Positions 2,356 to 63,723 of a stretch of 64,000 bases of DNA are shown piece by piece (the first letter of the stretch is position 1; each line of letters starts with the position of its first letter). The stretch spans positions 5,162,727-5,226,726 of the forward strand of contig OY987245.1 of NCBI GenBank assembly GCA_963920765.1, in the 5' to 3' direction. Source of the DNA: Ulota crispa (lineage: Eukaryota; Streptophyta; Bryopsida; Orthotrichales; Orthotrichaceae). Position numbers and translations under genes: made by a program. The notes under the pieces were generated by a model. That model was not told the DNA's origin. It made no database searches and saw nothing but the letters and a program-made list of their open reading frames with translations.

Positions 2356-3244
2356 CCCTTTAGAGACCACCAAACCATATTTTGGTTTGGTAGAGTGGTT
2401 TTTGGCTTATAAAGCAAAATTGTTCAACTACTTGGAAACCAATCTTGAAGAACGCTTGTGCTCACAAGAATTTTGCATTCAACCAAATATAAAACAATGA
2501 AATCAGGTATGTGAGTTGATAAATAATGATGTTTATACCACATGGCCTCAAAATACGTATCCATATTTGGTCAAAGATGGATCAAAGCAACAACACAATA
2601 CATCAAACATTCAAGAAGAATATCAAATTTCAATTGTGCGATCCTAAATTCCTCAAGAAATATGCTTGTATTGTCTCTCTATACGGTGGTAGTATAATTG
2701 TACTATTTGAAGATCTTTTAAAATGGTGCTATCATTTCATATTAAAAATTTGTCGTCTTACATTTAAGGCCAATTCTTTATTGTTTCACTAATTGGACTT
2801 TGCATAGCATTTATTAATTTTCTTGTAAGTTTGTTTTAGGGTAGCAAATAAAGTGGGATTTTTGACTTTTGTCCACTTAGCTACACCTTGTGATTGTTAT
2901 TTTTATCCATTTTGTGTGAAAATAGTCTCATTGGAAAGTTGAGAAACCCTGCTTTTTAGAAATATAAGGCTCTTCTCAAACAAAGCTTGTATGTAGTAAG
3001 ATTCAAAACCACACAAGCACAAAAACTAGAGATTTTCCACCTACAACTCACTCAATCATTATAATATTTCACCTCCAACGGTAGATCTAGTTGAAATTTT
3101 GATACTTTATAGTAAACAAGGTGTAGTTCCCATTTGTATGGTTGGATTATTGAAATCAGGCCCATATTTGATTCAACCGCCAATCCAATCTTACTACCGC
3201 GGTTTCTAATGAATTTTGTGAAAATGTGTGTGGTCTTTAAAGGG
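2356..3244. mobile_element. TTAA-flanked piggyBac-like non-autonomous element
   Basis: An 889-bp interval with TTAA on both sides (2352-2355, 3245-3248). The ends read CCCTTTAGAGACCAC and, on the other side, the complement of CCCTTTAAAGACCAC. No coding region with transposase character is visible inside. The interior does not obviously match the other copies in this window. Confidence 0.65.
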
Positions 3245-3248
3245 TTAA

Positions 3249-4304
3249 GATCACTAACAATGATACATGAGCAAGGTTTACTTTGTTATTTTTTGTCCAT
3301 GCAAGCAGATTTGTTTACAAAACTAGTCCACCTAGATTCTTGCCTCCAATAAACACTCCCAGTGCCTAGAGTCAAATTCAATTTTAGAAATACCTATAAT
3401 CAACACTTAGTCCAGAATTCATAGTTTTCACAAACAACTCCAAGATATAAATAAAGACACTAACAGAACTTGAAATTCCTTTGCAAGTGTCAACAATGCT
3501 GAACAAAAATTAAGACTTATAATAAACATCCAATTTTAGTTGCAGTCACCTTCCATCTCCTGCGATCAATGAAGAAAATAGATGAAATACATGTGCTATA
3601 AGAGACTTCAAAGAAGCAAATGGAACCCAAAATTGAGCAGAAAAATATACGTAACAAGAGAAATCGTGCAAAATACAGATCATATGCATATAGTTCGTCT
3701 TTGGAACTCGAAAAAATGCCTTGACATCGCCTTTCTCATATGTACACCAAGTCCGTATGTCTTCAACCCTAAACCGTCTGTACAGCTCTCTCAGTGAATC
3801 TATATGAAACTCCCTACATCCGGCAAGCAGAAATTTACAACTCAACCATTGAGCTTGCAATACAAAGCTGCGCATAGCTTTCCCAAAATCCCAGGTTCAA
3901 GGTTCGTTGCAGACGCGGCCCGCCGACACAAATATTTTATGAATCTTCAGTACTCACATAAAGATGGAGAATACACCTTCTTCCCAGATTTTGTAGGTTT
4001 TGCAGGTTTTGCATGAAAGTCACTTGCAGGTAAACCCTGCACCTTCTAATTCATCGTCCACAAGGGAGGGGTTCTAGAAGGGTATGGTTGCAGAAACAGG
4101 CTCACGAAGTGTTGAAAAACACAAATACAACTCCTCCAAACTTGGAGCTAGATGAGTAGGCCAGACTACATGACGTGTGCAGTTCGGATAATGGCCTTGA
4201 AAATGGTATATACCATCATCGTCTTGCAAACTACGAGTTTCGGTCAAAATCCTTAGATTTAAATTTTTCTGAGCTTCAGCTGGGTGGTAAGGTACTAATA
4301 CCAC
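3249..4304. other. Intergenic stretch, no confident gene
   Basis: Base composition rises from AT-rich to balanced towards the kinase gene island. Several frames are open for 70-110 codons on both strands (for example minus 3546-3875 and 4074-4304), but none has recognisable motifs or skewed third positions. Possible untranslated or decayed gene sequence. Confidence 0.4.
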
Positions 4305-4395
4305 TCACCAAAACTGGCTTAACTTTGACCGCCTTGTAACCATGGCTCTCCGAGTGTTGTTGTTGTTCAAGCTGTGCCGCCGTCCTGCTGATCCA

Positions 4396-4470
4396 ATACC
4401 TGTCCCAAAGCCTGAACCCGAACCCAAACCTGAACCTGCACCTGAACCACCAGAACCGAAACTTGAACCC
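4396..4470. repeat. Degenerate 6/12-bp tandem repeat with two alternative low-complexity frames
   Basis: The plus strand is a run of CCTGAACCCGAA-like units. Read on plus it lies inside a 105-codon ORF (ATG 4342 to stop 4659) with a hydrophobic start followed by Pro-Glu-Pro-Lys repeats. Read on minus it lies in an ORF (4535 to 4305) giving Gly-Ser repeats like a glycine-rich wall protein. Neither reading has supporting domains, and the minus reading lacks a good ATG. I therefore call it only as a repeat with a weak possibility of a small Pro-rich or Gly-rich protein. Confidence 0.45.
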
Positions 4471-4659
4471 CTCCTGCTGTGTCTACCCTCCAAGCTCTCC
4501 CTCTGCAAGAATCCCCCTGCAAATCTTAGCACCAAGCAACTAAACAGGTGGCCAGTAGTCCAAAGGAGAGATCCAAACCCATCTCACTCGGCTCTGTATT
4601 CCGACTTTATACATAATGTTCTGCCACGTTTCAATCCTACATTAGTTGAAACCCACTGA

Positions 4660-5016
4660 CAATCCCCCGTGGAAGAAACTTATAGACTGGCACTAGAAAA
4701 GATGAAATGGAGAGCCTCGTATTACACGGCTAAGGTTGAACAGCCCATGGCACGGCACAACACACTCTGGCACCCGTGTGATTTGATGTGAGATCCGCAT
4801 TGGGTGGCAAAATCCTCTCTCCCCTCCTGAACGAGCTCTTCCTTCTCGAAGCCTACGCAAATCCCCATCAATTGGCATATTATTACTCTTGCATTCGTTG
4901 CCTGGGCACTCACTGATCACAGTGCTGATATTCCCCTCAAGACGCAAGATACTCTCGTGCCAAGGCTAAGATGTTCCATTCAACCATCTCTAATTGCACG
5001 CCATGTAATGACACAC
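4660..5016. other. Intergenic DNA, nothing identified
   Basis: Balanced composition. Two overlapping minus-strand frames are open between 4693 and 4947, but neither shows a recognisable motif. Confidence 0.4.
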
Positions 5017-5018
5017 TA

Positions 5019-5403
5019 GGGGTAGTCACACCTTCACCCCATTCTCAATCTTCAGAAAATGGGGATACGGCACTCTCTCCTTGATTTGCAGAAGCCCCAT
5101 TCTTTGAAAATATAGAAGTTTTTTTCTTCACCTCTAGAGGAGAAGAATGGGCATGAATTTTTACCATGTGAAGTTTTTATCTATGCATATCTCTTTTTCA
5201 CCTTGCTCTTCTTGCTTTCATCCTTCTTGTGGCTAGAGACCTCAATTGATTGTGCGAATGCTACTTGTTTTCTTAATGCATCATTGTTTTAAGCAAACTC
5301 ATTCTCCATTCTCCACCGCCCACAAAAGAGGAGTCACACCTTCATGGAGAAGTGCATACTTCCACTCCACAAGTTCTCATTCTTCATACAAGTTTCATAC
5401 CCC
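5019..5403. mobile_element. TA-flanked MITE, family C (copy 1)
   Basis: A 385-bp element starting GGGGTAGTCACACCTTC and ending in the complement of a similar sequence, with TA on both sides (5017-5018, 5404-5405). The interior contains the CACCCCATTCTCAATCTTCAG and CACCTCTAGAGGAGAAGAATG segments also found in the copy at 58984-59398 and, more diverged, at 10774-11246. Non-autonomous. Confidence 0.75.
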
Positions 5404-5826
5404 TACTGGCCTAATCTACCCTCCCAACCCGTAATGTTGTGTACGCGTCTGAATTTGACAACTTCCACATGTCTGAACACATGTGGGCAGTGCAATTACA
5501 GAAGGTTGAGTGTAGAACTTAGAATCTGGTTTACATTACAAGGATAATACCGAACTACAGTATCATAGCTGCATTGAAACGCATTTCCGGAAATCTGACG
5601 AATCTCCAACTTAACGGTTTGTTGTATGACGTGAAAGCCGTGCCAAGCCCTCTAAGATTTCGGGAAACGGATTTCATTGCAGCTGTTTAGGGTTTCGAAC
5701 CAGACTCTCAAGTGACCGAGGATACCGATGGAAAACACAAGCGAGGAGCTGAGTTGAACACTCTAATCCCAGGAGCGTTAAGATTCGAGGCGTGAAGAAT
5801 CAGTAGGCGAAACGTGAATTAAGCAA
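5404..5826. other. 3' flank of the kinase gene
   Basis: Balanced composition and no coding frame. This is likely to hold the 3' untranslated region of the minus-strand kinase gene. Confidence 0.4.
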
Positions 5827-8102
5827 TTATTTGAAAGAAGATAGATGTGATGAGATGAGATGAGATGAGATGGGATAGGATGGAGATTGTACCGAGCTTT
5901 CGAGGAGCGGCGACTTATCACCCGAATACTCAATCAAGACCCGCCCGTCCTCCTTGATCGCGAGATACTCCACACAGAAGGGGCCTTGGCTTCGCCGCGG
6001 ATCGTGCGAGGGAAGGGGATGCTTGGTAAACATGGCAGGAGTTCGCAACGTCACACACCACTCCGCCGTCAACGTGATGTCGTCGTCGATCGTGAACTCA
6101 CGGTTGCTCCGGGCGTTGTACCACCACAGACCTTTCTTCCACAAGAATGCGCCGTTCAGCGTCGCCTCGATCTTGTTCAAGCCGAAGTTCTTGGGCGTCG
6201 GCCAGATCTTGCACCGCAACGCGATTCTGTTGTTGTTTCCCACCGTGCACTTCACGAGGATCGTGTTGTCTTTGATCTCGTACGTGGGGATCCTGGCAAA
6301 GCCACCACCACCATAGGGTTTTCAAAAATACGTCTTGGAAATCACGCCAAGTATTACCAAAACAGTCACATTCTTGGAAAACCCTACCTTAGCCCAAAAA
6401 TGATAAGCATGAGATAGTTTGAAAGTGTGACACGTGTGTTGTAGTCCACGATGACAAGGTGGCAAGTGTGCAAAAGGACCAAAACCAGCTCAAAGCTATG
6501 TGAATTGGAACAACGGATGGGAGAAGTGGCGAAACCCTGCTTACCCGCTGCAGCTCCGAGCGAAGACCGACGGCGCAATGGAGCGGTCGTTGAAGGAGCT
6601 GAAAGTGGAGCCATTGGTGCAAGTGAAATCCAGCGTCGTCTACAAACAGAAACAGCGACGTGAGAAAAACTCTGGAAAGTTTTGACATTGGAAAACGATG
6701 AGGAAGGGAACGGGGGATGGATGAGGCAACTGACATCAAGGCTGCTTTCGGAGCTGCCAGAGTACTCCTTACAATTGGCGTTGTGCAACCACACAACCAC
6801 TTCTTTCATGGAGGGCCGCTTCTCCTGCCGGTCCTCCACGCACATCTGCGCCACTTTCACCACATCGTACAGCTGCTCGTAGATCACGTCCGTGGGGCTG
6901 ATCCTTGCGTCCACCATGCGGGGCAGCAGGTGCCGCATGACGGGCTCCTCAATATCTAAAAAATCCTTGCACCACGTCACGAGGCTGACGCGCTGCTGGA
7001 TGGCGCGCCGGCCAGTGATAAGCTCCAACAGCACCACGCCATAGCTGTACACGTCGATCTTGTCACATGGCACGCCACTGATGAGGTACACAGGGTCCAC
7101 GTAGCCGTGCGTGCCGCGGACGCGCGTGGAGACCGTGACCTGGTGATCAGGGTGTAGAGGTTTGCTCAAGCCGAAGTCGGCAATCTTCGCCTGCATGTCC
7201 TCGTCGAACAAGATGTTTCCAGCTTTGATGTCGCGATGCACCAGGGAAGGGTTGGCGTGACTGTGCAGATACTCCAGCCCCTGCGCCAACTCCGCCGCGC
7301 ACTGCATGCGCGCCTTCCAATCCAGGTGCGACTCGTCGTTGCCTCCGTGCAAATGCTGGTCGAGGGTGCCGTTAGGCATATACTCGTACACGAGAAAGAG
7401 GTCGTCCTCGTCGATGCAGAATCCAAGGAGCGCGACGAGGTTGCGGTGGTGCAACCGCGAGATGGCATTGAGCTCCGCCCAAAACTCCTTCTCCACAACC
7501 TCCTGGCTACGATTGTCAAAGTTGTGGAGCTGCAACACATTGTTGCCCTTCTGGAGGCGCTTCACGGCCAAGGGGCGCGGCGGATCCTCAGGAAGCGAGT
7601 TCGCGAAGTAGACGACTCCCTGCCCGCCTTTCCCAAGCTCCCGCTTGAAATTCTCTGTCATGGCTTGGATTTCTACCAACGTGTACTCCCGCACCACGCC
7701 CACGGTCGACGTGCGATACAACAAGCGCGGGCTGCTGGTGGTGGACGGGGTGAGCGGCGGCGGCGGCAGCGTCTGGGGCTCCGGCACTAACACGATCTCC
7801 TTGCCAGTCGTGACTTTCTGGCTCGCCTTCCAGAACAGCCCCGTGGTGACCCCCACTATGAAGATGAGTAGGAGCGAGAACGCGCTGGTGAGACTGTTCT
7901 CCATCTCCCGCCGGCTCCCGAAACTATAATACTCCTGCGGCTTGTGCGACCACGCAGGGAATTTTTCGCCGCGGCTATACAACGCCCCCACGTCGCCGCT
8001 CACATAGTCCGCCATAGCCAGAACGCTAGCGACCAGCCAAGCATGCCATGCATCGACTCTAGAGAGAGATCTCATCGCGCTCGATAGCACACTCCTCCGC
8101 AT
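5827..8102 (-). CDS. Receptor-like Ser/Thr kinase with unrecognised C-terminal extension (three exons)
   Basis: Single-pass membrane receptor-like kinase of the plant RLK/Pelle family; expected to sit in the plasma membrane and phosphorylate Ser/Thr of unknown partners. Exon 1 (8102-6735) encodes a signal-peptide-like start (hydrophobic run near residues 20-32), a short ectodomain, a membrane segment (about 73-92), a Pro-rich juxtamembrane region and a kinase domain (about 153-440). Catalytic features are intact: glycine loop GKGGQGVV (157-164), Lys181, Glu210, HRD 289-291 and DFG 309-311, so it is an active-type RD kinase. The unspliced frame runs on to 6384 with poor codon use. A better model splices at 6734-6640 and 6544-6293 into GC3-rich exon 2 (6639-6545) and exon 3 (6292-5827), giving about 642 aa. 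Donor 1 (GTCAGT) is weak; donor 2 (GTAAGC) and acceptor 1 (pyrimidine-rich, TTTGTAG) are good. The roughly 185-aa tail has six Cys and no family I recognise; it could be a separate gene. Confidence 0.85.
5844..5880. repeat. GATGA pentanucleotide microsatellite
   Basis: Several units of GATGA or its variants. It is translated in the last codons of the minus-strand kinase model as a Ser-Ser-His-Leu repeat. Confidence 0.8.
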
Positions 8103-8836: not shown

Positions 8837-9088
8837 AGAATCCCTGCGGCTCTGCGACAAAGGGGGGTGCAGCGAATGTGGATGCGGGGGAGGAGGTGAC
8901 GGCTGCGATCGCGCGATGGCTACGGTCACGAGCGCTAGACGGCTAGAGCGCCGGCTGCCATGTGTCGCCCCGGTTGGCCCGGCCAAGCCTCGCAACGACC
9001 CCGTAAACTGGCTCTTTGTTCGGAACTCCGCTGCCTCGGGAGGTTTCCTTCGTGAATCGTGATCTCCAGGGGGGGCGGTTCACGTTAA

Positions 9089-9780
9089 CCCTTAAAGGTC
9101 CGTGCATTCAAAAAGTAGTAACTTTCGAAATATCAATTTTTGGTATGTGGTTTGAACTGAGAGCTTCTTCAGCCTTTCGCGTCACACAGTGCACGCAAAG
9201 ACTTGCTTGGAGAGTGCTTTTTGTTTTAAAGAGAGCAGTTCCGGTTTGGAGGGCTAGCCTTCCTCTCCAAACACGCACGTCAAACCTTAAAAGCAGGATA
9301 AAAATAAGCACTTGCGATGACCTTCATGCTTTTTTGGAACTGCAAACGAATCAGATTGAGCCACAACTTGCAAACTTGCAAAAATCAAGCACGCTAAGAA
9401 TTAGAGAAGACATTGGAAATTGCAGTTTCAGAAAAGAAGTTTGAGGAGCCCAGCCTTCATTTCGCACGTGGCGCGTCCCCGCTGGACCCGGATTCCGGCT
9501 TCTCGCTAGCCCAAGCCCGCTGCTTTGCAGTGTGGTGAGAAAGGCAAGAGGTGCTCTAAGATAATGAAGCTTGACAAGTTTCTTTTCTTTTTCATTTAAT
9601 GTTTTTGAAAAATATCAAAAATTGAAAGAGTTATTGCCATTGAAAACTCCAAGTGTTAAACTCCAAATAACACAATATGGTGTGTTTTTCATTCATATTT
9701 TTCACTCTTTAAATGCATTTTAAATTTAAACTACAAAACTATTTTCTCATTCTATCATTCATTTATGGTAGAAATTATAA

Positions 9781-9879
<99 letters not shown>

Positions 9880-10399
9880 GTATATTAGTTAATATGATTT
9901 TATTTCCACATTTAGCTTTACAAAATCACAATAATTTGAATTTTCCACCAAACAAAAAATTTAACGTAAATAGAAAACGAATGTGTCTTCTAGCAAAGCA
10001 TATCAAAATTTTATAAATTAATTAAATATAAGGATAAACTTGGTTTGACAGTCAAACTTGACTTAAATTCTTTGTTGTGGCTGTTTTGGGTGTAAACAAT
10101 AAAATCACCAATGGAATTTTTTTTCACTCTAATCTATTATGCTGCTTGTACCTCTTGTAAAAATTTCAAATAATTTGAATTTCTTTTGCTATTTTAACTG
10201 ATTTATGTTCATTTTTTGAAAAAAGAATGATAGCAATTACAATTTCTCATGAAATAAATTGAAATTTCTTGGAGTGATATATTGTTCATAGCTTCAAGCA
10301 ATAAAAATACTAAATTGTTGTTTGGACACACTTTAAAAGGAAAAATTGAGCTTCAACATGAAGTTTGACCATTTCAAAATGGATCAAGTCCTTTAGGGG
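9089..10399. mobile_element. TTAA-flanked piggyBac-like element with internal TA microsatellite
   Basis: A 1311-bp interval bounded by TTAA (9085-9088, 10400-10403). The left end CCCTTAAAGGTCC matches the complement of the right end, CCCCTAAAGGACTTG. The inside is mostly AT-rich, but about 9440-9540 is GC-rich like the neighbouring gene island, so it may have captured host DNA or the element may be composite. The open frame at 9016-9444 crosses the left boundary and is not credible. Confidence 0.6.
9786..9892. repeat. TA dinucleotide microsatellite
   Basis: About 100 bp of TA repeats with occasional TG interruptions. An open frame across it is only the translation of the repeat. Confidence 0.95.
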
Positions 10400-10403
10400 T
10401 TAA

Positions 10404-15402: not shown

Positions 15403-15406
15403 TTAA

Positions 15407-16338
15407 CCCCCTAAAGGCCCAAGCCCTTTTTTCTATGAAAGTCACTCAAAACTGCCACTTTTGGGGGAATGAGTAGAAAGGTATGAAAACATGTTTTTTT
15501 GGAAAATCCAACCGTAGGATCTTGCCCTGGAATACGGCGGGTAATTGCAAAAGAAAAATTCAGCTTATTCTAAATGTAAATGAGTGAGGTATTCACATCT
15601 AAAGTCAGAAAAAAAGTTTTTTCCCTGCTGCCCAAAAAATTCATAAGCCTTTGACTTCTCCTATATCAAAAAAATTTCTTTACACAAAGTTGAAGTTTAT
15701 TCCTCCCATGTAGGAGACCAAGTTAGGTAAGTGTGGGAGAATTTTCAAATGAATTGGAGGTGTGATACATACTTTGTAAAATCTTGCAATACCCGAAGGC
15801 CATGAAATTTGCATATACACTAGGCAAACTTGGAGGATTTATGTAAAATTGAGAAATCTGAATAACTTTGATCCAAATGGTGAAAACCAAGGAATCTTAG
15901 TCTACTACAACTTGGAAAAAAAAAGTAAAAGAAAAAACCCCAAGGACCAAATTTAACAAGGGGCAAAAGGAATGGAGGTTTGGGAATCCCATACCTGCCT
16001 GAAAACCAAAACTTTTCACTCATAAATTAGAATTGAATGATTCAAAGCTTCCCACATTTGTAAAAATCTAAAGAATCAATTTCAGATTTTTAATTTTGAG
16101 TGAAATTTTTAAAGAAGTTTTTTGGGCTGCCCAAATTGCCTACACTCCCATGTTGTTCAGAAATTCATGCATAACTTCTTCAATAAATGTCAAAATGAAG
16201 AAAAAAGTAGATGTGCACGTACATCTTTGAATTCCACACAATCCTCAAAAGTTTCAAAAAAATTATAAAAACTGGTTTAGTCACAGGTACATGCCCAAGG
16301 TCCATTTGTCCCTCAAGGGGACACTTGGGCTTTTAGGG
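15407..16338 (+). mobile_element. TTAA-flanked element, 930-bp family A1 (copy 1)
   Basis: A 932-bp copy flanked by TTAA (15403-15406, 16339-16342). The left end is CCCCCTAAAGGCCCAAGCCC, and the right end carries a subterminal palindrome (GTCCCTCAAGGGGAC) before CTTGGGC. It is homologous throughout to 20132-21064 (inverted), 23079-24006 and 34196-35128. The length is almost constant (928-933 bp), so these are a homogeneous non-autonomous family. No transposase. Confidence 0.9.
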
Positions 16339-16342
16339 TTAA

Positions 16343-17828: not shown

Positions 17829-17832
17829 TTAA

Positions 17833-18544
17833 CTTCTAAAGGCCTAAGCACTATATTTTGGCAACATAGCAATTTTGGGCAACTCACTACAAGTGGATGT
17901 TTCATCTTCACACATGATGTGCCCAAGGAGTAGCTTTAGGGTCCAACTATTTTCATAACTTTTGACCACATGGTTCACAAGTTATTGCATGATATGTTTT
18001 TTTTAGAATCTAGGCACCTTGGGCAGTTAAAAAAAACTTCTTTAGAATTTATTTATTTATTTTTTGGAACTGGTTCTTGGACTTATATGTACTTGGGAAG
18101 CTTTGAATCATTCAATTTAGATTAAGGAAACAAAATTTATAAGAAATTTTAGTTTGTGGGTAGGAATGGAATCTCTCAAATTAAACTGTTCCTACTAGCA
18201 AACTAAAACTCCTTATAACTTTCATCTCATTAATTGAAATCAAATGATTCAAAGCTTCCCACATACATATAAGTCAAAAGAACCAATTCCAAAAAAAATC
18301 AAAAAAAGTATAATTTTTAAAGAAGTTTTTTTAGCTGCCCAAGTTGTCTGGAGTTCTATAAAAACATATCATGCAATAACTTTTGAACCATGTAGTTAAA
18401 AGTTATGAAAATTGTTGGATCCTAAAGCTACTCCTTGGACACATCATGTGTGAAAAGTTCAAAGAAAAAAAGTAATAATTCCACTTGTAGTGAGCTGCCC
18501 AAAATCTAAATTGTCCCCTAAAGGGACAAATGGGCTTCTAGGGG
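17833..18544. mobile_element. TTAA-flanked foldback element
   Basis: A 712-bp interval with TTAA at 17829-17832 and 18545-18548. The ends are CTTCTAAAGGCCTAAGC and the complement of CCCCTAGAAGCCCA. The two halves are inverted copies of each other over several hundred bases (for example GGGCARCTCACTACAAGTGG near both ends), giving a potential long hairpin. The internal part shares the GAATCATTCAA segment of family A1. Confidence 0.75.
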
Positions 18545-18548
18545 TTAA

Positions 18549-19322
18549 CCTCTAAGCGTCTTTCTAACAAAATTTTGCATACCTCCAATATGGAACCTTC
18601 AGCACATTCCCTCAATTTTTAGAAGTTGAACAAGTATTCATACAATCTAAACCAGCCATTCTGTACCCAACTATCAATCAAAAGTTTAAGGCTAGTCTGA
18701 TTTCAAATCCAAGTAAATCTGCAAAATCCCCACCGTCAAGAATCTTGTATTTGTTAATTTGGGTAGCATTTCACAATGTGAATTTTGGATTTTGATGTGA
18801 TTTTTTCCCAATAAAAAAAAAAATATCTAATGGTTGATCCCATGAGACCATGTCTAGCTATACTTGATGGAAAAAAAAACTCCTCAAATGGGAACAAACT
18901 CCAAAACTTATGGTCATTCAAAGTAAGTGGATCTAGTTGGCTCATTACTTTAAAGCTACAAAAACCTTGCCCAATTGAGAGAAAAAAAAGTGACACTTCA
19001 CCAACCTTCTCCCTTATATATGGGAGAGTGTGCTTTCAACCCATCCCATCCAAAATTCCTCCATCCACAATGCAATGTACAATGCCTATATACACTCCCA
19101 CTAATAGTTTTAATATTAAAAATAGTAAATTCAAATGTTTGGGTGCAAAATCTAGAGGTTTCAAGGAACAACAAGCCAATCCAAATTTTTTGTTGGACTT
19201 TTAACTCCATTTGGACTTCAGTGACAAACCATAAATTTGAGCATGCAATACCCCTTTTTTGTCTACTTTTACACCTCCAAGAACCCCATTTGGCCATATT
19301 GGGCTCTTTGGTCCTTTAGGGG
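18549..19322. mobile_element. TTAA-flanked element abutting its neighbour
   Basis: A 774-bp interval sharing the TTAA at 18545-18548 with the previous element and ending with CCTTTAGGGG before TTAA at 19323-19326. The left end CCTCTAAGCGTC matches the right end only partly, so one boundary may belong to another insertion. Confidence 0.5.
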
Positions 19323-19326
19323 TTAA

Positions 19327-20084: not shown

Positions 20085-20131
20085 TATATGTAGCTACTTC
20101 CAAATGTGCACACCCAAACCCAAGGTTTTAA

Positions 20132-21064
20132 CCCCTAAAGGACCAATTGTCCCCTTGGGGGACAGTTGGGATTTCGGGCATGTACTTACAACTAAACTTC
20201 TTTGTATGATTTTTTGAAACTTTTATGGAAGATGAGAAATTCAAAAATCTACGTGGGTATCTAATTTTTTTGTCATTCTGACATATATTGAAGAAGTTAT
20301 GCATGAATTTCTGAAAAACAATGGAGATCGGGCAACCAAAAACTTTTCTAAAAATAACAAATTTTCACAATAAAATTCTAAAATTCGTTCTTTAGATTTA
20401 TGCATATGTGGGGAGCTTTGAATCATTCAATTTCAATTTATGATTGAAAAGTTTTAGTTTGCAGGCAAGTACAAAACTCCCATACCTCCATTCCTTTTGC
20501 CTTTGGTGCTTTACTTTTTTGTGCTCTTTGTGAATTTTTTTTTGACTTTTTTTTTCCTTGTTGTAGTAGACTAAGATTCCTTGATTTCCACCATTTGGAT
20601 CAAAGTAATTCACATTTCACAATTTTACATAAATCCTCCAATTTTGCCTAGTGTATATGCAAATTTGATGGCTTTACGGCATTGCAGGATTTAAAAAAAT
20701 ATGATTCACACCTCCAATTCATTTGAAAATTATCCCACACTTACCTAACTTGGTCTTCTACATGGGAAAAATAAACCTCACATTTGTGTAGAGCATTTTT
20801 ATTTATTTAGAGGCAATCAAAGGCTTCTGAAATTTTTGGGCACCAAAGAAAAAACTTTTTTTTTCACTTCAAAAGTCAATATCTCACTCCTCTACATCTA
20901 GAATGAGCTAATGTTTTTTCCACAAGTACCTCCCATAGTCTAGGGCAAGATCTTACAGTTGGATTTCCAAAAATAATTGTTTTTCCTACCTTTGTACTCA
21001 TTCCCCCAAAAGTGATAGTTTTTCAGTAACTTTCACTAAAAAAAAAGGCTTGGTCCTTTAGGGG
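20132..21064 (-). mobile_element. TTAA-flanked element, 930-bp family A1 (copy 2, inverted)
   Basis: A 933-bp copy flanked by TTAA (20128-20131, 21065-21068), with ends CCCCTAAAGGACCAATTG and GGCTTGGTCCTTTAGGGG. It lies in inverted orientation relative to 15407-16338 and has the same length as the copy at 34196-35128. A subterminal palindrome GTCCCCTTGGGGGAC lies just inside the left end. Confidence 0.92.
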
Positions 21065-21085
21065 TTAAGTTAGACATCATGTTAG

Positions 21086-21727: not shown

Positions 21728-21874
21728 TTAAATGACACTTATTAGCATATGTGGTAAATGTTTTTTTAATCCACTTCACCAAATATGCTAATTAGGTCAC
21801 TCCACACCACTTGCTCAATATTCACACTATAATATTTAACTCGTATGCAATGGTTTATAAATTTGTTCACTTAA

Positions 21875-23074: not shown

Positions 23075-23078
23075 TTAA

Positions 23079-24006: not shown

Positions 24007-24010
24007 TTAA

Positions 24011-33322: not shown

Positions 33323-33326
33323 TTAG

Positions 33327-39084: not shown

Positions 39085-39088
39085 TTAA

Positions 39089-39411: not shown

Positions 39412-39415
39412 TTAA

Positions 39416-39810: not shown

Positions 39811-39814
39811 TTAA

Positions 39815-41201: not shown

Positions 41202-41205
41202 TTAA

Positions 41206-46540: not shown

Positions 46541-47075
46541 TGTCACTTGCACAAACAAATCTTGTCACATGTTAACTTAACCTCTAAGCGTCACAGAGGA
46601 TGTTTTTTGGATCCTGATTCCAGGAGCACTTCAATTATCAAACTTTATAATCTCCATATCCGTGCGGTGGATTTCTACACAAATTATAGATTTGCATTTG
46701 TCAAGAAGTTGCCAACAAATTCCTACGGTGGATTTTGTAATTGTTGCTTACACTCCAAGTTATTCCATTTAGTTTAGAATGCTCTCCCAAATTTGTTATT
46801 TTGTTTGTGACGCTTAGAGGTTAAGAGCTAGTTTGGGAGGGTTGGGATTGGGACCGTCAAGTACATGTATAGGTACATATCCAAACAATTTTTAAGGTAG
46901 TTTAGAGTTGCTAATATGGACCTTATGAACTTTAACTTTGCCCTTTAATATAAAAGAATCTACAATACTTTTTTCCACAAAAATCACTTTTCATACATTT
47001 CACGATAGCTTATTGAAAGGCTAACCTAAATATTTTTTCCCTAAATTTCTCAAGGTCTTGAAGTACCCTAAACCC
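46541..47075 (+). repeat. Dispersed repeat family G (copy 2, interrupted)
   Basis: Matches 33749-34025 on both sides of the TTAA-flanked insertion at 46581-46820 (left ACTTGCACAAACAAATCTTG, right GGGAGGGTTGGGATTGGGAC). Confidence 0.75.
46581..46820. mobile_element. TTAA-flanked MITE with CCTCTAAGCGTCACA ends
   Basis: A 240-bp element with exact inverted ends CCTCTAAGCGTCACA, flanked by TTAA (46577-46580, 46821-46824). The paralogous sequence near 33780 has a single TTAA and no insert, which demonstrates TTAA duplication on insertion. Confidence 0.92.
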
Positions 47076-48972: not shown

Positions 48973-48981
48973 TTTATTTAA

Positions 48982-49397
48982 GAAATTGATATGTGCACAT
49001 TGAGGGGTTGATATTTGCACACCCCCTGGGAGGTAAATTATAGATTTCTACCACCTAAAAGCTGAAGTTGAGAATTTTAAATTCAGATTTGGACTTAGAG
49101 ACCACGATTTAATCTAGAACCATTAAAAAATTGCAATTGAACAACATTCAATGAAAAAGCTTATCATTTTTTATAAACAAAAGTAAAAGTAACACTTTTC
49201 CCCCTAGCTAAGTTTTTTTTATTGAGTATTGTTCAATTGCAATTTTTTTTTTATGGTTCTAAACTAAATCATGGATCTCTAAGTCCAGATCTGAATTCAA
49301 AATTCTCAAATTCAACTTTTTGATGGTAGAAATTTATAATTTATCTTCCAAGGGGGTGTGCAAATATCAACTTCCCGGTGTGCACATATCAATTTCC
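48982..49397. mobile_element. Mutator-like long-TIR foldback with 9-bp TSD (second family)
   Basis: A 416-bp element with two arms of about 190 bp beginning GAAATTGATATGTGCACA, flanked by the 9-bp direct repeat TTTATTTAA (48973-48981, 49398-49406). It has the same architecture as 1085-1488 but a different arm sequence. Confidence 0.9.
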
Positions 49398-49406
49398 TTT
49401 ATTTAA

Positions 49407-49763: not shown

Positions 49764-49767
49764 TTAA

Positions 49768-50665
49768 CCCCTAAAAGCCCATTGTCCCTATGGGGGACGC
49801 AATGGATTTTGGATATGCATATTCTATTGGGATATTTGAATATTTTTTTCTCTTTTTTGGAATGATACTCTACAAAGGATATGTAAGTGTGTATATATAC
49901 ATGTATGTATAAATATATAAATAAATTAGACTTACAATTCAAAAAAATTTGATAGTTTACAAGTTTTTTTTTGTTCAAGGGATAGTTTGGGCATGCCATT
50001 TTTTGTTGAATTCTCTCAGGGGCCTCCAATGAGGACATGACCCTTCACAAGAGTATTTACAAAGAAATAATGTACCAATTAATTATATAATTGTATTAAA
50101 AAAATACACTAACTTTTGAATTGCAATAGCTACTAGAGAGTTGGTTTTACCATTTTTTTTTGTAGTTGTCAGAAAAGGTAAAGCCTTTCAATATGCCACT
50201 TGGAGTTTTATATTTCAATATTGGCCCTCATAATTTTTGGTTTGAAAAAAAACCCAAACGTATTGTAAAAGTTGAGCACATGTTTGTCATGTAGGGCCTT
50301 GTCAAGTGTGTTCCATGTCTTTGTTGTTCTTGAAAATTTGGGCAAACATGCCTAACATGGTTTAGAGCATGTTGTGCAAATATCTACAACACCCATGTTG
50401 TAAAAAAATTTCCACAACATGCAATTGAAGGGATTTGAAATTATAGATCAAAGGTCAATTTTTTTTAACACTAACTTCAAATGAACATATCTTTCATTCC
50501 GTGCAATCAAATCTTATATAACTTTCACCATGTCTTTTTGCACAAATCTAATACAAGATCTTACTATTAAATCTGTACAAAGTATTAAAAGATTACTCTG
50601 GAAATCAAATGTCTAAAAATGACATTTTTGAGTTTTTTCGAGAAAATGGGCTTGGGCCTATAGGG
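49768..50665. mobile_element. TTAA-flanked element, 898 bp
   Basis: Flanked by TTAA (49764-49767, 50666-50669), with ends CCCCTAAAAGCCCATTGTCC and the complement of CCCTATAGGCCCAAGCCC. The subterminal palindrome GTCCCTATGGGGGAC lies inside the left end. The interior is largely unlike family A1. Confidence 0.8.
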
Positions 50666-50770
50666 TTAACATTGCAAGTGCTTGCAGTGCATGTCTAATT
50701 CTGATATCGGCAACCTAGCAAACAAAACGGCTCCTACTTCCAACTTCAAAAACACTAAGTTCTCACCTAT

Positions 50771-51130: not shown

Positions 51131-51812
51131 ACAACCAAGGGGGTAAGGGCAAAACATAGATGCGTCCTAAAATGATGTTTTTGTAACTCTAATGAAGGTT
51201 GTTTCAAAAGAAAAAACCAGAATCATGATCTATAGTAATTATCCATACGATCAAACTAGTGCATTTTTTTTTGGCAATTTTTTGCCAATTGGTGACAGAG
51301 CTGTCTAGTTAGAACGCATCCTGGCATTTATAAGCCAATGTGCTTCTTTGCTTTCGAATTCGGCGACAACCGATTCTGTGAAAAAAAATGCCCTAGATCA
51401 AAAATTCAATTAAAAATTTGAACTCTTATTTAATGAATTTAGAAGCATTGACAATTTAATATTCATCAAAATTACAAATTTTATTCATAAAATTTAAAAA
51501 TTGGTATGAATGGTTAGAAATAGACATTCTATTCAATACTTCAAAAATGCAATCTTCTTGAAGGAGAGAACATTACTGGTTTCCCAAAATAGTAAATTTT
51601 GTAGCACTAGCAAATATTGAAGTGTTTGTCTTTGAAAAATTCTCCTTCATGGAATTAAACTTGAATTGACATAATTCAAGTTGGGTTGAAAAGTAGACTT
51701 GCATTCCTATATGAAAATATTTTTAGATTTTCCAAAAAATCTAATTTTTTTCCATTTCGGGCAGCCCGCAAAAAGGGCAGCTGCCATAAAATGGTCGATT
51801 GGGCGTTAGGAC
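51131..51812 (+). mobile_element. TTAA-type element, family A3 (copy 1), decayed ends
   Basis: Homologous to 61703-62484 (shared AGGGCAAAAYATARATG, AGTAATTATCCATAC and TTAATATTCATCAAAATTAC). The left flank is TTAA (51127-51130); the end motif is degenerate (ACAACCAAGG), as is the right end (GGGCGTTAGG). It carries the nested element at 51256-51396. Near 51667 it keeps a single TTAA at the site where the other copy has an insertion. Confidence 0.75.
51256..51396. mobile_element. 141-bp MITE with 6-bp TSD, nested
   Basis: Ends CTAGTGCATTTTTTTT and the complement of CTAGGGCATTTTTTTT, flanked by the direct repeat ATCAAA (51250-51255, 51397-51402). It is absent from the paralogous element at 61703-62484, which confirms insertion. 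The superfamily is not assigned. Confidence 0.78.
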
Positions 51813-55282: not shown

Positions 55283-58074
55283 ATGCAAAGTGTCGGAGGT
55301 AGGTGCAATTCCTCCGTTGCACTGCAGACGAAGAGAAATCAGGCTACGCCAGAGTTGGATTTGGAGATATGGAGCAACCTACCACCCGAACTGGTTGCGA
55401 GAATTCTCGCGCTGCTACCGCTTACGGCGATCATCCGCACGCGGCTCGTCGACCAGCAATGGGACCGCGCTACTTACTCGGGTCGAATTCTGAGCGCTGG
55501 TGGTGGTGGCTCAGTCCGTGATGGACGACGCTCGTGGCTGTTTCTATTCGGCCCCGGTATGGACATGCAAACGTTCGACCCCGCGCGCGATGAATGGCAA
55601 ACGCTCACTGGCACGCTGCCCCGCTTCGCTATGAGCGTGCATAGAATCAGTGAACTGTCGCTGTGCGGCGCGGCCTCTGGGCTCATGGTGTACGCCATCC
55701 GGGCACCGAAGAGCCGGTTCATCCGGTTCGGTGTATTCAATCCCATCACGCGGTCGTGGAAGAGGCTGCCTCCGCTGCTCAAGCGACGCCAGCAGCCCGT
55801 CGTCGCCATGTTCGTTCCGGAAACGAATGGTTCGAGAGTCGGAGGAGGGGGTTACAAATTGGTGGTGGCGGGGGGCATGGAGTACGACGAGCGCGTAGCT
55901 ACCACGGAGGTTTACGACTCCAGAGCAGAGTGCTGGCGCACTACGTGTGCGAAGTTCAACAACCAGCCTGCGAGTCATGTGTGTGAGGAGATGCGGACGT
56001 CGACGGCGTTCTGCGACGGGACCGTCTACCACCTGCGCTTTAACCAACGACTGTGCTTCGATCCCCATCGAGGTAATCTCACAATTCCTTGAATCTTCAA
56101 GTCTCGTGCCATTGAATGTATCCCGAGGAACCCTAAATCTTAAATCACCGCGATGCCCAAATTGGGCCTCATGCTATTCAAGCATTTTGAGGAGCTCAAA
56201 CTTTTGACCAGTACGCTCCAACGTCAATTTTGTCGACTTGGCGGCAGCCATGTGTCAGAAATAGCGACATATTCTTCACACTGGTCTAATTTCAGTCCAC
56301 AACTAGGAAATTCCCCAATTGGGAAAACAAAGAATTAATATGGAAAAATTTCATCAATGTCTGAGGTTTGCAATATTTGCATAGATATCCTTGCTTTTCC
56401 AGAAATTGCACAAATATCCTTGGACCAAAATTTTCAGACATTTGTTTTGTTGTGCATGTCTCTTTCTTTATGAGCACATTGCTTCTTTTTTGTTTCAATA
56501 TATTCCCTTCTTCAACATTGGTCCTAAGGAATTTACAAACACAATAAACAAATGCCTAAAAATTATGGTCTAAAGGTATTTGTGCAATTTCTGGAAAAGC
56601 AAGGATATCTATGCAAATATAGCAAATTTTAAGGGTATCCACCAAATTTTCTTACTTAATAGGGGGTTGCAGATATCTCAAAAATTAGGGGGTTTCAGAT
56701 ATGCTGTTCACCACCAATTTCATTCACATGAATGAAATTGGTGAACAAGTTAGTCAAGCCACCGTTCATGTCCTTGCGTTCATGCATTCAAATATGCAAA
56801 TTGTAGTGAACTACTCACCACCCTTTCAACTTTGTCCACAATCACCAATCCCATAAGCTAATATGGACCCCTTGAACTCCACCATTGTCGTTTCTACTCT
56901 GGAATCCTTTGGCTCCACAATTGTTCGCTTCTAATCAGGGTCTCTTCAGCTCCACCATCGTAGCTTCTCCCACATCGCGATTCCTTGAATGACCTTGACA
57001 TGGCAATCAACTCTACATCCAAATTGTCTAAAGGCATGGAGCTAGCGGGAGAGGCAAGGAGGGAAAGGCTTCATGTTGTTCATGGGTGAACAAGCCATGA
57101 GGACCTCATGGAGGTCCTCATGGGTGGTTCACTTTTGTGACTTCATGTTCACCAATGAACAAAAACTAGTTCACAATCATTCGTTATCTATTTTTTTGAG
57201 ATATTTGAAACCCTGTATTTAAGAAACAAATGAACATGAACAAGTTTTTGTTCACCGCAGTGGACGTGCTGTCACGACCTCCAGAGATCATCATGACTTG
57301 TTCACTCCAATTTTTCACTAATCTTATTCACGTGAACAATTTTGGTGCAGAATGCCATAATTGAAACCCCTAATATTTAGGCCGCGCAACCTAAACAGCA
57401 ACAAAGTAGTGGGATTCGTTACACTATGATCAATCAAGTTAGCCGTTTTCAAACCATGAATCCGCGGTCCTAAACCCCTAAAATTCTGATATGACCCGGC
57501 TTGGTTGGTGACAGAGAATCACACGTTCATGGCGTACGACACCAAGACCGCACGGTGGCGACCGTTGCGAGTGACGCTACCACGGGACCTCGTTTTCACG
57601 GAATACCCGTCGCTGAAGCGCGTCTGGAAGGGGAGTGTTCACGTCGCGGACGTCTTCCCTCCCGTGCTGGTGGAATCCAACAAGCGGCTGCTGCTGATCG
57701 GGTTCCGGGAGGAAGTTCGATCTGCTTGCAGTGTCGCGGGGGCTGCCATTTGGGAGCTCGTGATCGGGAAGTCCAAGGCGTGGAGAATGGTGAGCGTGAT
57801 ACCGGATTCCCTCTTTCAGCGAGTGTTGTGCCCTGCGGCCGCGACCGAGGCGTCGGATTCCGCGAGTTCGTACTTGCAGTACGAGCTCCAGGGCGCCGCC
57901 CATGGAGAGCTCGTATATGTGTTCCGACCGACGGGCGGTGTCCTCCTTTGTGACTTGGCGCAGAGACCGCCGACGTGGCGATGCATTCGGCAGAATACGA
58001 TTGGCCGGTACTGGTCGTCGAGTTTACAGGGGTGCGTCATGGATCTGAGATTAGACGACACCGCCTTTCTCTGA
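55283..58074 (+). CDS. F-box/kelch-like protein (two exons)
   Basis: Predicted substrate-recognition subunit of an SCF ubiquitin ligase; such proteins bind SKP1 through the F-box and select targets through a beta-propeller-like C-terminus. Exon 1 (55283-56072) and exon 2 (57515-58074) join in frame at G|AG (a Glu codon) across a GT-AG intron (56073-57514), giving 449 aa, a usual length for plant F-box/kelch proteins. The F-box spans about residues 33-63 (LPPELVARILALLPL, then RLVDQQW). A kelch-like blade lies near 192-222 (AGGMEYDE, TTEVYDSRAECWR), and a second repeat starts exon 2 (FMAYDTKTARWRPL). There is no signal peptide or membrane segment. The ATG is the first after an in-frame TAG. 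Third positions are GC-rich throughout both exons. The specific orthologue and target are unknown. Confidence 0.92.
56366..56637. mobile_element. Family F foldback inside the F-box intron
   Basis: A 272-bp hairpin whose arms contain GAAATTGCACAAATATCCTTG and its inverse, starting TTTGCAATATTTGCATAGAT. Related arms are at 28154-28300 and 44505-45034. Confidence 0.8.
56651..57378. mobile_element. Second foldback-like element inside the F-box intron
   Basis: Inverted ends TTAGGGGGTTTCAGATATG and, complemented, TTAGGGGTTTCAATTATGG. They continue with TTCACATGAATGAAATTGGTG-like sequence near both ends and a direct repeat of GAGATATYTGAAACCC type inside. Boundaries are approximate and the family is unknown. 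Confidence 0.5.
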
Positions 58075-59918: not shown

Positions 59919-59922
59919 TTAA

Positions 59923-60568
59923 CCCCTAAATGCCCAAGGCACCCAATTTGGGTGTTTGCAAACCTTTAAAGACAAATAAAATCTTATCAAATCACTATTT
60001 TTGGTATTTTGTTTTGAACACAAGTATGTATTGAAGTCTATTTTCAACATCAAAAATCTGATTTAAAAAATGAACATTGATGATTTTTCTACTCAAGATT
60101 TTGTACAATGTTGTCCATTGCAATCTTGAGTTTTCTAGTGTTGGAAGATCTTGAAAATGAGCTTCAAATACACTAGAGCTTGGAGAAAAATCTGCATTAG
60201 CAATCCATTTAAAAAAAATACATGAGTAGATTTTGAAAGCCGTGAATTGGTTGAGGTTAAACATGTAATGACCTTAAACCTCATATTTTTTTGATGACCA
60301 ACTTTTTAGATTTAACATGTGAAATGAGGATTAGAAAATTTCAAGTCACTTTTGCAGTTTTAACACCCTCATGTTCAAACATTATAATCTTTCAAAGTAT
60401 AAGTGATATTGTTGTGTTTTCTTTTTCCATGTAATCTCTAACATGTCAAAGTTTAAATTTGTACAATTAGAGTTAAAAAAAACTTGATGAGATTTATGAA
60501 AAGATTGGTTGATTGTTCACTTTCCTAAAAATGCCAAGAAGTTCAGAAAGGCCTTGGGCATTTAGGGG
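59923..60568 (-). mobile_element. TTAA-flanked element, 645-bp family A2 (copy 3, inverted)
   Basis: A 646-bp copy flanked by TTAA (59919-59922, 60569-60572) with ends CCCCTAAATGCCCAAGGCAC and GGCCTTGGGCATTTAGGGG. Homologous over its length to 21086-21727 in inverse orientation. Confidence 0.92.
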
Positions 60569-60572
60569 TTAA

Positions 60573-61499
60573 CCCCTAAATGTCCAAGCGTGTTTTTCTT
60601 GTTTTTAGAAGGTAGTTTTGAAGTTTTTGAATTGTCCTTGTAAGATCATTATTAAACATCAAAACAGAATTGTAACTGTTGAATCTTGAACTTCAAGGTT
60701 TCTAAATGGCACTACCCAAAAAGAATCCAAAATGGCCTCGCGGATTTTAAGATATTTGTGATTGAATGATGATGAGTATGGAATTTTTTGCTTTTTTTGG
60801 AGCTGCCTAAAACTCCTAATGCAAATTGGCAATTTTTGGATACAAAATTGGAAAACAACCACTCAAGATGCTTTAGTGTTTATTGTTGTTACTTCAAAAC
60901 CAATGGCCCCTCTTCCAAATCCATGACCACAATTTCACGAATGAGCCTGCAACGCACCTACCAAAATGCAATCGTCTAATACAAAGAAATTTTCAACTTC
61001 AATTGTTGACCAAAAATCATTACGAATGAAAGATTTTCATTGGTGAATAGATTCTAATTTTAATAACAAAGACATTCCGAGTGAAATTAGTCCAAAAGCA
61101 CTTTTAGATTTTGTTAGATGTCAAAATTTCAGAAAAAAGGCCCTTGTTGCCCAAGGGAGACTAGGGAGTGCCCAAGAGAAATCTTCACCTTTTGCTCAAC
61201 TTGATGCCCGCCTTTTCAATGTGGCAACTTCTCATAAGCTCTGTGACACTATTCACAACACTATTCATGATACTATTCACAACACTATTCATGATAAAAA
61301 ATGTATGCTTGTAGTAAACCTTCAAACAAAAATAAATGGAATAAGACATGGAGGAAGTTGAATTTGAATGAAGCTAACTTCAATGCACAACTTTTTCAGA
61401 AAAAAAAACCTCAAACAATAAAATCTGTGCCTTCAACAGGTTTCAAAGTTTCCTGAAATTTTTTGGACACCAGAATCTGGTGCCTTAGGCATTTAGGGG
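60573..61499. mobile_element. TTAA-flanked element abutting the previous copy
   Basis: A 927-bp interval sharing the TTAA at 60569-60572 with its left neighbour, with TTAA at 61500-61503 on the right. The ends are CCCCTAAATGTCCAAGCG and the complement of CCCCTAAATGCCTAAGGCAC. The right 80 bp resemble an A2 end. A short repeat of CACTATTCA/TGATACTATTCA type lies at 61249-61295. Confidence 0.8.
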
Positions 61500-61702
61500 T
61501 TAAGTGATATCTAAGTGTTTTCTCTTCATATTCGAGGACTCTCTGTATTGTGTACAAGTGATATAGTTTTTTTGTGGAACATTCCAAATAGCATGATGCT
61601 ATTTCAGAGTACAATTTTTTCATAGAGTTAAGATTTTCACTCTTAAAGAAAATGAACTTTGCCCACAATGGATTATAAGTTTAGTGCAAATCAAAGTTTT
61701 AA

Positions 61703-62484
61703 CCCCTAAATGTCCAAGGGGATAAGGGCAAAATATAAATGTGTTATAAAATGATACATTTGTAACTTTGGTAAAGTTTGCTTCAAAAGTGAAAACAAGA
61801 ACCATGATGTTTAGTAATTATCCATACAGTCAATCATTCAAAAAAGTTTTGGAATCTTATTTAATGAATTTGAAAGTATTTACCATTTAATATTCATCAA
61901 AATTACAAATTTTGTTCATAGAATTTAGAATTTGGTATGATTGGTTAAAAATAGACTTTCTATTCTAAAAATACATATATGCAATATTTTTGAAGGACAC
62001 ATTGTTAGCTTCCCAAAATAGTAAATTGTATAACATGAGCAAATATTGAAATGTTTGTTTTTGAAAAATTCTCCTTGGAGGAGTTTAACCCCTAAGCGCA
62101 TAGAGTTGAAACAAAAAAAACTTGACTTGTGTGCAATCAAATTGCCCATGTGGATTGAAAAATACAATCCACAAGATTGGACCATATGAATTGTTAGTGG
62201 AAAGTATCTCCATCATGCTAGACTAGCTTGGAAGTGGATTCACCAAATGTGCAATGAGATTATATTGGTCAAAATTGAGTTGACCCAGCTTTTTGAGCGA
62301 CATGATAATGTCTCTGAGGCGCTCAAGGGTTAACTTAAATTGACATGATTCAAATTGGGTTGGAAAGTAGACTTGCTTTCCTACATGATTTTTTTTTCAT
62401 TTTTTCAAAATATATATTTTTTCATCTTGGGCAACTCACAAAAAAGGGTAGCAACCAAAAAATGTTCAATTGGGTGTTTAGGGG
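61703..62484 (+). mobile_element. TTAA-flanked element, family A3 (copy 2), carrying a nested insertion
   Basis: A 782-bp interval flanked by TTAA (61699-61702, 62485-62488) with ends CCCCTAAATGTCCAAGGGG and the complement of CCCCTAAACACCCAATTG. Without the nested element at 62089-62329 and its extra TTAA it would be about 537 bp. Homologous to 51131-51812. Confidence 0.88.
62089..62329. mobile_element. TTAA-flanked MITE nested in a family A3 copy
   Basis: A 241-bp element with ends CCCCTAAGCGCATAGAG and the complement of CCCTTGAGCGCCTCAGAG, flanked by TTAA (62085-62088, 62330-62333). The paralogous site at about 51667 has one TTAA and no insert. Confidence 0.92.
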
Positions 62485-62690
62485 TTAAGTGATAGTAATG
62501 GATAGAGTACAAGTATCAAAATCCCCTACACAATTGATTGGATACATTTCTTATATTTTTCCAAATGTTTGTTGTAATTTGATACCAAAAACACATTTCC
62601 AATTTTTACACAATCGCGTTTGAAATGCATCAAACCAACATTGACATGCAAGTCTAAGTCTTTTTTTGCATAAACTAGTTCAACCCTTAA

Positions 62691-62916
62691 CCCTTAAACA
62701 ACCAAAAGGCCCTTTGTGACCAATACAATACGGGGTAGTTTCTTGTATTTGGAATGGATTTACACCTCTACTACATTTGAGACCAACAAAGAAGTTGAAG
62801 AATAGATCAATGCGGTTCTAGTGAGCTACTTGAGATCCCAAATTAAAATTTCTATATTGGTAGCAAATGACAATTACACGTCATCATATATACTATGTCC
62901 TATGGTTGTTTAAGGG
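62691..62916 (-). mobile_element. Family D MITE (copy 4, inverted)
   Basis: A 226-bp copy flanked by TTAA (62687-62690, 62917-62920) with ends CCCTTAAACAACCAAAAGG and the complement of CCCTTAAACAACCATAGG. It is the most complete inverted copy of the family and serves as the reference for the interrupted copy at 47578-48027. Confidence 0.9.
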
Positions 62917-62976
62917 TTAAAGGACCAAGCTACTATCTATACTACTAAGTGGGAGGATTTCCCTAAGTGCGCCCTT

Positions 62977-63009
62977 TTCTAGAACCTTCTAGAACCTTCT
63001 AGAACTTTC
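62977..63009. promoter_or_regulatory. Seven-unit heat-shock-element-like array
   Basis: Seven alternating TTC and GAA triplets, each separated by two bases (TTC-TA-GAA-CC repeated, ending in TTC), form a perfect extended heat-shock-factor consensus. Function is inferred from consensus only. No gene start is visible within about 1 kb on either side. Confidence 0.5.
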
Positions 63010-63164
63010 TGTTGTAAGTTGAAGCAACAAAGGACGCCCAAGATATAGAGCACCAAGTGTCTTCCAACCATGTTCATTTCCAAAATTTTGTAGAACTTTT
63101 TGGTGGAACTTGAAACAATAAATGATGCCTTGAATATAGAACACCTAACGCCCTCCAACCATGT
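63001..63164. repeat. Diverged tandem duplication, about 91-bp unit
   Basis: AGAACTTTCTGTTGTAAGTT...TCCAACCATGT (63001-63072) recurs as AGAACTTTTTGGTGGAACTT...TCCAACCATGT (63092-63164). The duplication lies directly next to the heat-shock-like array. Confidence 0.65.
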
Positions 63165-63454
63165 GCTAGAAATCAATCAAATGCCAAGCGCCTCCTAACA
63201 AAATAAAAAAGATTACCATTGTGATGAAAGCAACTAGAATTGTTGGTTTCAAAAAAGGAGCAAAATGATGGTGCATGTGGATTAGATTCTACACCAATTG
63301 TGAGATATTGATCTTTTGTATTTGTATAGTACATCAAGATTAGATTCTAGACCAATTGATTTGTGAAATTTGTAAAATTGAATGTTGCATTACTCATACA
63401 TGTCCTACTCACGCAAAGTGTGTGCCTCTACACTAGTAATACCTAATATATAGC
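63165..63454. other. AT-rich intergenic DNA
   Basis: GATTAGATTCTASACCAATTG recurs at about 63281 and 63340. Nothing else is recognised. Confidence 0.4.
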
Positions 63455-63504
63455 ACCTATACGTCAGCATATACACTATGTACTATGGTTGTTTAAGGGT
63501 TAAA
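63455..63504 (-). mobile_element. Family D terminal fragment
   Basis: The sequence up to TATGGTTGTTTAAGGGTTAAAGGACC repeats the right end and flank of the copy at 62691-62916 (62875-62930), indicating a truncated or duplicated piece. Confidence 0.6.
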
Positions 63505-63514
63505 GGACCGAGCT

Positions 63515-63723
63515 ACTATAATACATAGTATGTACGGTGCTATATGACTAGCATTTGCTACCAACAAAAAATTTAATTTGGGATCTTGACTACCTCACTA
63601 AAACAACATTGATCTATATTCTAACTTCTTTGTTGATCTCAAATGTAATAAAGGTGTGGATGCACTCCAAATACAAGAAAAATACCCCATATTGTATTGG
63701 TCGCAAATGGCTGCTTGGTTGTG
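63515..63723 (+). mobile_element. Family D MITE (copy 5)
   Basis: The interior matches 33099-33322 (GCATTTGCTACCAAC, TTTGGGATCTTGAC, CAAATACAAGAAAAATACCC). The right end is degenerate (TTGGTTGTG) before TTAA at 63724-63727; the left end is not clear. Confidence 0.75.

Follow-up and report, generated by a model that had tools for sequence, protein, structure and literature searches.

Small TTAA-bounded elements in a probable moss genome are probably non-autonomous piggyBac transposons

What are the short intervals that crowd between TTAA tetranucleotides in a 64,000-nucleotide stretch of what is most likely a moss genome, and which transposase moved them? The stretch (hereafter the window) corresponds to C4:5162727-5226726 of an assembly of 274.8 Mb in 157 contigs, and an initial annotation had described about twenty such intervals with CCC- or CCT-starting ends, for which it proposed a piggyBac-type origin. 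We consider it highly probable (about 0.92) that the elements in the window are piggyBac transposons of the non-autonomous kind, that is, internal-deletion derivatives resembling miniature inverted-repeat transposable elements (MITEs), mobilised by the genome's own DDD (three-aspartate) transposase.

All pairs of ends in the window were compared over the 12 bases inside TTAA, with up to 3 mismatches, a spacing of 120-1600 bp and both ends starting with CC; 100 first-order Markov sequences served as random controls. Eighteen pairs were observed against a control mean of 0.09 (maximum 2), in good agreement with the roughly twenty elements annotated before. Dropping the CC condition left a modest excess (24 pairs; control mean 7.8, maximum 19), and among tetramers compared at 120-3000 bp spacing AATT (67 pairs) exceeded TTAA (33), while ten other tetramers gave 0-14. 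The signal is therefore carried by the CC ends and not by TTAA pairs as such. With weaker candidates included, 19 intervals make up 14,518 bases, or 22.7% of the window. The length families reported earlier (about 225-240, 540, 645, 930 and 1200 bp) were recovered at 234-249, about 541-545, 650-654, 935-942 and 1208 bp, and six further lengths were found (331, 720, 897, 906, 1319 and 1395 bp). In two pairs of neighbouring elements, the two members have a single TTAA in common, at 23075-23078 and at 60569-60572.

The termini of the window elements read CC...GG, with inverted repeats starting CCC or CCT; the ends of animal piggyBac elements likewise start CCC. These termini bear on Kolobok elements, which also duplicate TTAA and would account for the four-base target slot described below. 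According to the available part of the published description (PMC9587614), Kolobok termini are 5'-RR and YY-3', which sets them apart from the ends seen here and contradicts Kolobok, and the transposase found with such ends in this genome is DDE_Tnp_1_7. The check for this domain that the initial annotation had suggested favours piggyBac, and by the termini a Kolobok origin is very improbable.

The most abundant family was examined using the 941-bp element at 20128-21068 (+ strand) as query. A genome search returned 9,010 first-look candidates, 40 of which were scored, and the best 39 matches besides the query are 90-93% identical to it over essentially all 941 bases. In 30 copies that were read with their flanks, two of them from the window, TTAA is present on the left in 30/30 and on both sides in 26/30, so that the termini do coincide with TTAA in a multi-copy comparison; by eye, the outer flanks vary between copies. 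Divergence from the family consensus has a median of 2.95% (range 1.5-6.6%), a low value that describes a favoured sample and not the whole family, because the sample consists of those copies that match a single one best. In the consensus, built with one row misoriented, stop-free frames do not exceed 61 codons. Genome-wide (275 Mb), there are 15,307 occurrences (7,666 + 7,641) of the 18-base end motif TTAACCCCTAAANGNCCA, in which two positions are left free, and 0 of its reversed control. A second motif, TTAACCCTTAAACNACCA, occurs 288 + 280 times (reversed control 0 and 1), and among the matches listed at least six +/- pairs span 233-241 bp. Ends of the first motif number 13 in the window, against 3.6 expected from the genome mean; the window is therefore a motif-rich stretch rather than a typical one. 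At locus L036 (1501-2445) one element of the 941-bp family has landed within a second member of that family, about 100 bp from its end.

Twenty-three candidate intervals of the window were compared with the other retrieved copies, a set rich in the 941-bp family because that family was fetched by the genome search. Full-length copies with TTAA at both ends were found for six of them: 20128-21068 itself (28 copies), its 940-bp relative at 15403-16342 (26), its 936-bp relative at 23075-24010 (28), which shares the TTAA at 23075-23078 with its neighbour, the 942-bp member at 34192-35133 (26; - strand, 93% identical to 20128-21068), the 654-bp element at 59919-60572 (1), also detected in the end-pair test, and the 234-bp element at 62687-62920 (1; terminal inverted repeat (TIR) CCCTTAAACAACC). 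No end was reproduced in the retrieved copies for 9085-10403 (29 high-scoring segment pairs (HSPs)), 60569-61503 (2 HSPs), 46577-46824 or 62085-62333 (0 HSPs each); these four rest on their own TIR pair. The original claim of TTAA on both sides needs correction in places: the left site of 21082-21731 and both sites of 33095-33326 have decayed to TTAG, and the right site of 34192-35133 reads TGAA.

For the target site, the two flanks of each of 46 insertions (28 from retrieved loci, 18 from the window) were put end to end and compared with the retrieved sequence. Relatives spanning the joined flanks were found for 14/46 insertions, with a gap-free four-base slot in 12. The remaining two joins are uninformative: one boundary had been misplaced at window position 21077 (correct 21082), and the neighbour of window position 21871 is itself an element. 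In relatives of three insertions (L012, L014 and window 62085-62333) the unoccupied slot is TTAA itself, the cleanest case being L014 against L036 (93% over 212 bases) and the L012 case being weak (69% identity); in a relative of the L024 insertion the slot is TTGA. Because the four-base slot has contiguous flanks, TTAA is the target and is duplicated on insertion, and the TTAA of the window elements behaves as a four-base target site. The same data address PIF/Harbinger (Tourist-like) elements, which are common in plants and whose three-base TTA or TAA duplication, contained in TTAA, might have been read as TTAA. The contiguous flanks around four bases, the whole TTAA on both sides in 26/30 copies and the association with a piggyBac transposase all argue against them, and we regard this origin as extremely improbable.

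A search of the genome with the PF13843 (DDE_Tnp_1_7) profile, in which 116 of 528 candidates were scored, yielded at least 120 rows that pass the cut-off, located on contigs C1-C11, with 0 of these 120 in the window, in line with the earlier description of the elements as lacking a transposase. The 14 control genomes in this search appear prokaryotic (also without U5) and are uninformative on plants. The longest stop-free frame examined, at L063, encodes 436 aa and covers profile positions 2-340 of 349; hmmscan confirms L063, L062 and L064, with E values of 6e-60 for L063 and 8.1e-63 for L062. At E values up to 1, the only PDB matches of the L063 and L062 proteins are piggyBac (6x67) and piggyBat (9c0f). 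By manual count, the aspartates of TVDE, TDNFFT and GVDIVDQ in L062 align with positions 268, 346 and 447 of the 6x67 chain, the aspartates that the accessible text of PMC7351741 gives as the active-site residues of piggyBac. Across the loci, the first catalytic aspartate is present in 19/21 and the third in 18/21 translated sequences, and the second was recovered in 11/20 by a motif search, which may miss copies that have decayed; L063, L047 and L054 carry Asn at the third position. The frame at L063 (3426-4733), stop-free with this Asn, may have decayed or may have been kept as a non-catalytic copy. A cysteine-rich C-terminal motif occurs in 6/20 loci, one of them with an internal stop, and no zinc-ribbon match was found in the two proteins scanned. 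Pairwise identity among 21 transposase sequences has a median of 35% (27-81%), and several divergent lineages must therefore be present. No relative of the transposase turned up in a single scan of viral contigs.

The piggyBac identity proposed by the initial annotation is supported by longer elements with similar ends. At L059 (1476-6502; 5,027 bp) the DDE_Tnp_1_7 region is enclosed by two C-rich ends at TTAA, CCCCTCATCGCCAA and CCCTTCATTGCCAA; homology between L059 and L048 stops at the right TTAA, and the left boundary falls outside L048. At L060 (161-6170; 6,010 bp) it lies between the C-rich ends CTCCTAAGCGCCCC and CCCCTAAGCACCCA, again at TTAA. A direct connection to the small elements is found at L055, which has the right end TTAACCCCTAAAAGACCAAGCC and whose last ~550 bp are homologous to one half of the 941-bp family. 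The same half occupies the same place and orientation at L056, whose transposase region is ~65% identical to that of L055 at the nucleotide level; the very end of the L056 element lies outside the fetched locus. Transposase followed by the 941-bp half, in equal order and orientation, is also found at C4:11.55 Mb, which is a PF13843 row, and at C6:0.987 Mb, which is not such a row and is matched by L055 DNA from the domain end onward. Four chance placements of this half, alike in position and orientation, are very unlikely; the 941-bp family may derive from a transposase-bearing element. At L061, in a single copy, the sequence downstream of the transposase, which ends at position 7095 of the locus in a CCCCTAAAGGCCC end, is ~70% identical to the right part of the 906-bp window element at 49764-50669, a similarity that may belong to a neighbouring element instead of the transposon's own end. 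The interval 1075-2000 of L061 is a small element of its own, found also in L002 and L023, and no full extent is therefore claimed for the L061 transposase. A long four-base microsatellite (about 5500-6120) directly follows the piggyBac transposase frame at this locus.

For the remaining families another mover has to be considered. Sola3 uses a TTAA target, and Sola3 or an undescribed TTAA-targeting superfamily might have moved most of the small families, the piggyBac genes being unrelated to them. This would fit the fact that a sequence connection to a transposase locus exists for two families only, the 941-bp one in four copies and the 906-bp one in a single copy, the 234-, 248-, 650- and 897-bp families being tied to piggyBac by ends and target only. 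On the other hand, TTAA and C-rich ends are common to all families, the L060 ends CTCCTAAGCGCC/CCCCTAAGCACC resemble those of the 248-bp CCTCTAAGCGTC family, and the CCCTTTAGCGACC end downstream of the L063 transposase resembles that of the 897-bp family. We therefore consider such a mover quite unlikely, and retain piggyBac as the probable mover of these families as well.

Several observations weigh against the piggyBac interpretation. Two joined-query searches around L055 failed to locate the left half of the 941-bp family, although they may not reach far enough upstream; L061 gave no clear left end, and L062 and L064 show no pair of ends. Several of the 12 slot cases depend on relatives with less than 80% identity, and the unoccupied slot is often not TTAA: it is TGGA in 33/51 relatives of the L036 site, and TGTT, ATAG and TGCT in relatives of window 46577-46824. 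Given such slots, these elements must have gone into copies in which the slot had turned into TTAA. Finally, 110/120 transposase rows carry stops and only 10 are stop-free, no stop-free row spans all 349 profile positions, and the nearly full L063 carries Asn where the third catalytic aspartate is expected and is for this reason probably not active. The active source elsewhere in the genome that the initial annotation had implied was not recovered in intact form, and since most transposases carry stops, present activity is putative.

The mechanism that we propose for these piggyBac derivatives would start from larger elements at other places in this genome, which measure 5.0 and 6.0 kb where both ends are known and which encode a DDD transposase with the piggyBac domain. 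This enzyme would recognise CCCYTAAA-type ends, cut, and paste into TTAA, duplicating the tetranucleotide, and would mobilise the small elements in trans. By analogy with piggyBac chemistry as outlined in the available text of PMC7351741, the element would be cut at its ends with TTAA hairpins, excised seamlessly and inserted into TTAA. Where the second half of the 941-bp family came from, and how recent these events were, are parts of this explanation that we infer. More tentatively, at somewhat less than even odds in our estimate, piggyBac may be a long-term resident of a moss lineage and one of the main DNA transposons of this genome, many old and divergent transposase lineages having repeatedly spawned small high-copy derivatives, some of them so recent that the family may still be mobile.

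The plant host assumed in the initial annotation is supported by light-harvesting genes in the genome. Eight light-harvesting protein matches of near-equal profile score lie within 0.4 Mb at C4:21.39-21.77 Mb. The best single-domain PDB relatives of the L068 protein are 8htu, presumably from Physcomitrium patens, and 7xqp, while the multi-domain 9vfj scores higher as a whole. According to the accessible part of PMC12589708, 7xqp is also from P. patens. The host is a land plant, most likely a moss.

Compared with piggyBac of Trichoplusia ni and with piggyBat, the elements described here share the TTAA target and the transposase family, with these two as the only PDB matches, the three catalytic aspartates aligned in L062 and possibly a Cys-rich C-terminal domain, the motif of which occurs in 6/20 loci. 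They differ in their land-plant host, in their size of 5.0 and 6.0 kb where both ends are known, in a median identity of 35% among transposases of one genome and in end motifs numbering in the thousands. Insect piggyBac MITEs are short, gene-less, TTAA-flanked piggyBac derivatives; here the host belongs to another kingdom, and several length families run in parallel in one plant genome. Traces of piggyBac in plants are already known. In the parts of the sources available, PiggyBac is named among the MITE superfamilies of angiosperms (PMC10004981), is listed with 1,230 copies (0.00%) in the repeat table of C-fern (PMC6890710) and with 1 copy of 75 bases in that of feather grass (PMC8319324), and is reported from all taxonomic groups studied in one survey (PMC4438587). 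In contrast to these plant repeat tables, one 18-base end motif by itself has 15,307 occurrences here, and on this evidence the expansion is large for a land plant. No published report of a piggyBac expansion in bryophytes was found in the open-access literature, an absence that is weak because only open-access papers were covered; in the accessible passages of PMC10619864, PMC12531127 and PMC9919379, one of them a moss genome paper, the word occurs only as 'piggybacking' or 'piggybacked'. Animals are the main hosts from which piggyBac, a workhorse vector, is known; thousands of end motifs and more than 100 transposase matches in a plant genome widen the range in which the superfamily thrives. 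Such a genome also provides plant-resident piggyBac transposases for study. It further suggests that repeat annotation in bryophytes should seek TTAA/CCCY families, and it makes it possible to ask whether piggyBac entered mosses by transfer or by inheritance.

The other elements of the window are as follows, from left to right. An 897-bp element (2352-3248; TIR CCCTTTARAGACC) has 3 HSPs, with each end at TTAA once. The 1319-bp candidate at 9085-10403 contains a TA repeat between the TIRs CCCTTAAAGGTC and CCCCTAAAGGAC, its ends being reproduced in 0/29 HSPs. The 720-bp element at 17829-18548 has long internal inverted arms, and 2 HSPs place either end at TTAA; a single element at 17829-19326 was rejected as a composite of this element and an unresolved part, 18545-19326. 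The 650-bp element (21082-21731) is followed by a 1208-bp element (21871-23078) with TTAA on the left in 45 HSPs and on the right in 29, and with no full-length partner among the retrieved copies. The 248-bp element at 26170-26417 (TIR CCCTTAAACGA) has a relative of about 232 bp at 33095-33326. A 331-bp foldback element (39085-39415) has 149-nt arms that are 91% complementary, and a 1395-bp candidate (39811-41205), a longer relative of the 654-bp family, has each end at TTAA in 5 HSPs. The second 248-bp element, at 46577-46824, has the TIR CCTCTAAGCGTC (12/12), and its related sites have a four-base slot that is not TTAA. The 935-bp element at 60569-61503 shares its TTAA (60569-60572) with its neighbour. 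An element of about 541-545 bp (61699-62488), whose TIRs differ at 3/12 positions, is split by a nested 249-bp element (62085-62333), of which unoccupied relatives lie at 51504-51807 and in L028 and L029. The interval 63503-63723 retains one intact end (TTAA 63500-63503) together with part of a 234-bp-family element.

A foldback repeat of about 430 bp at 48975-49404, with TGTGCACATATCAA-type ends, occurs also in L029 and L037 and adjoins the transposase loci L042 and L052. It was excluded as a family member, because TTAA/CCC ends are absent and other copies lie away from transposase loci. At 1074-1499, two inverted arms of 207 nt, 85% complementary, lie 12 nt apart. Tandem arrays are present at 35812-36125 (107-bp unit) and 45324-45740 (17-bp unit). 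Two open frames were noticed in the window, one with a protein kinase domain (6384-8102, - strand) and one with F-box/kelch matches (55283-56092, + strand).

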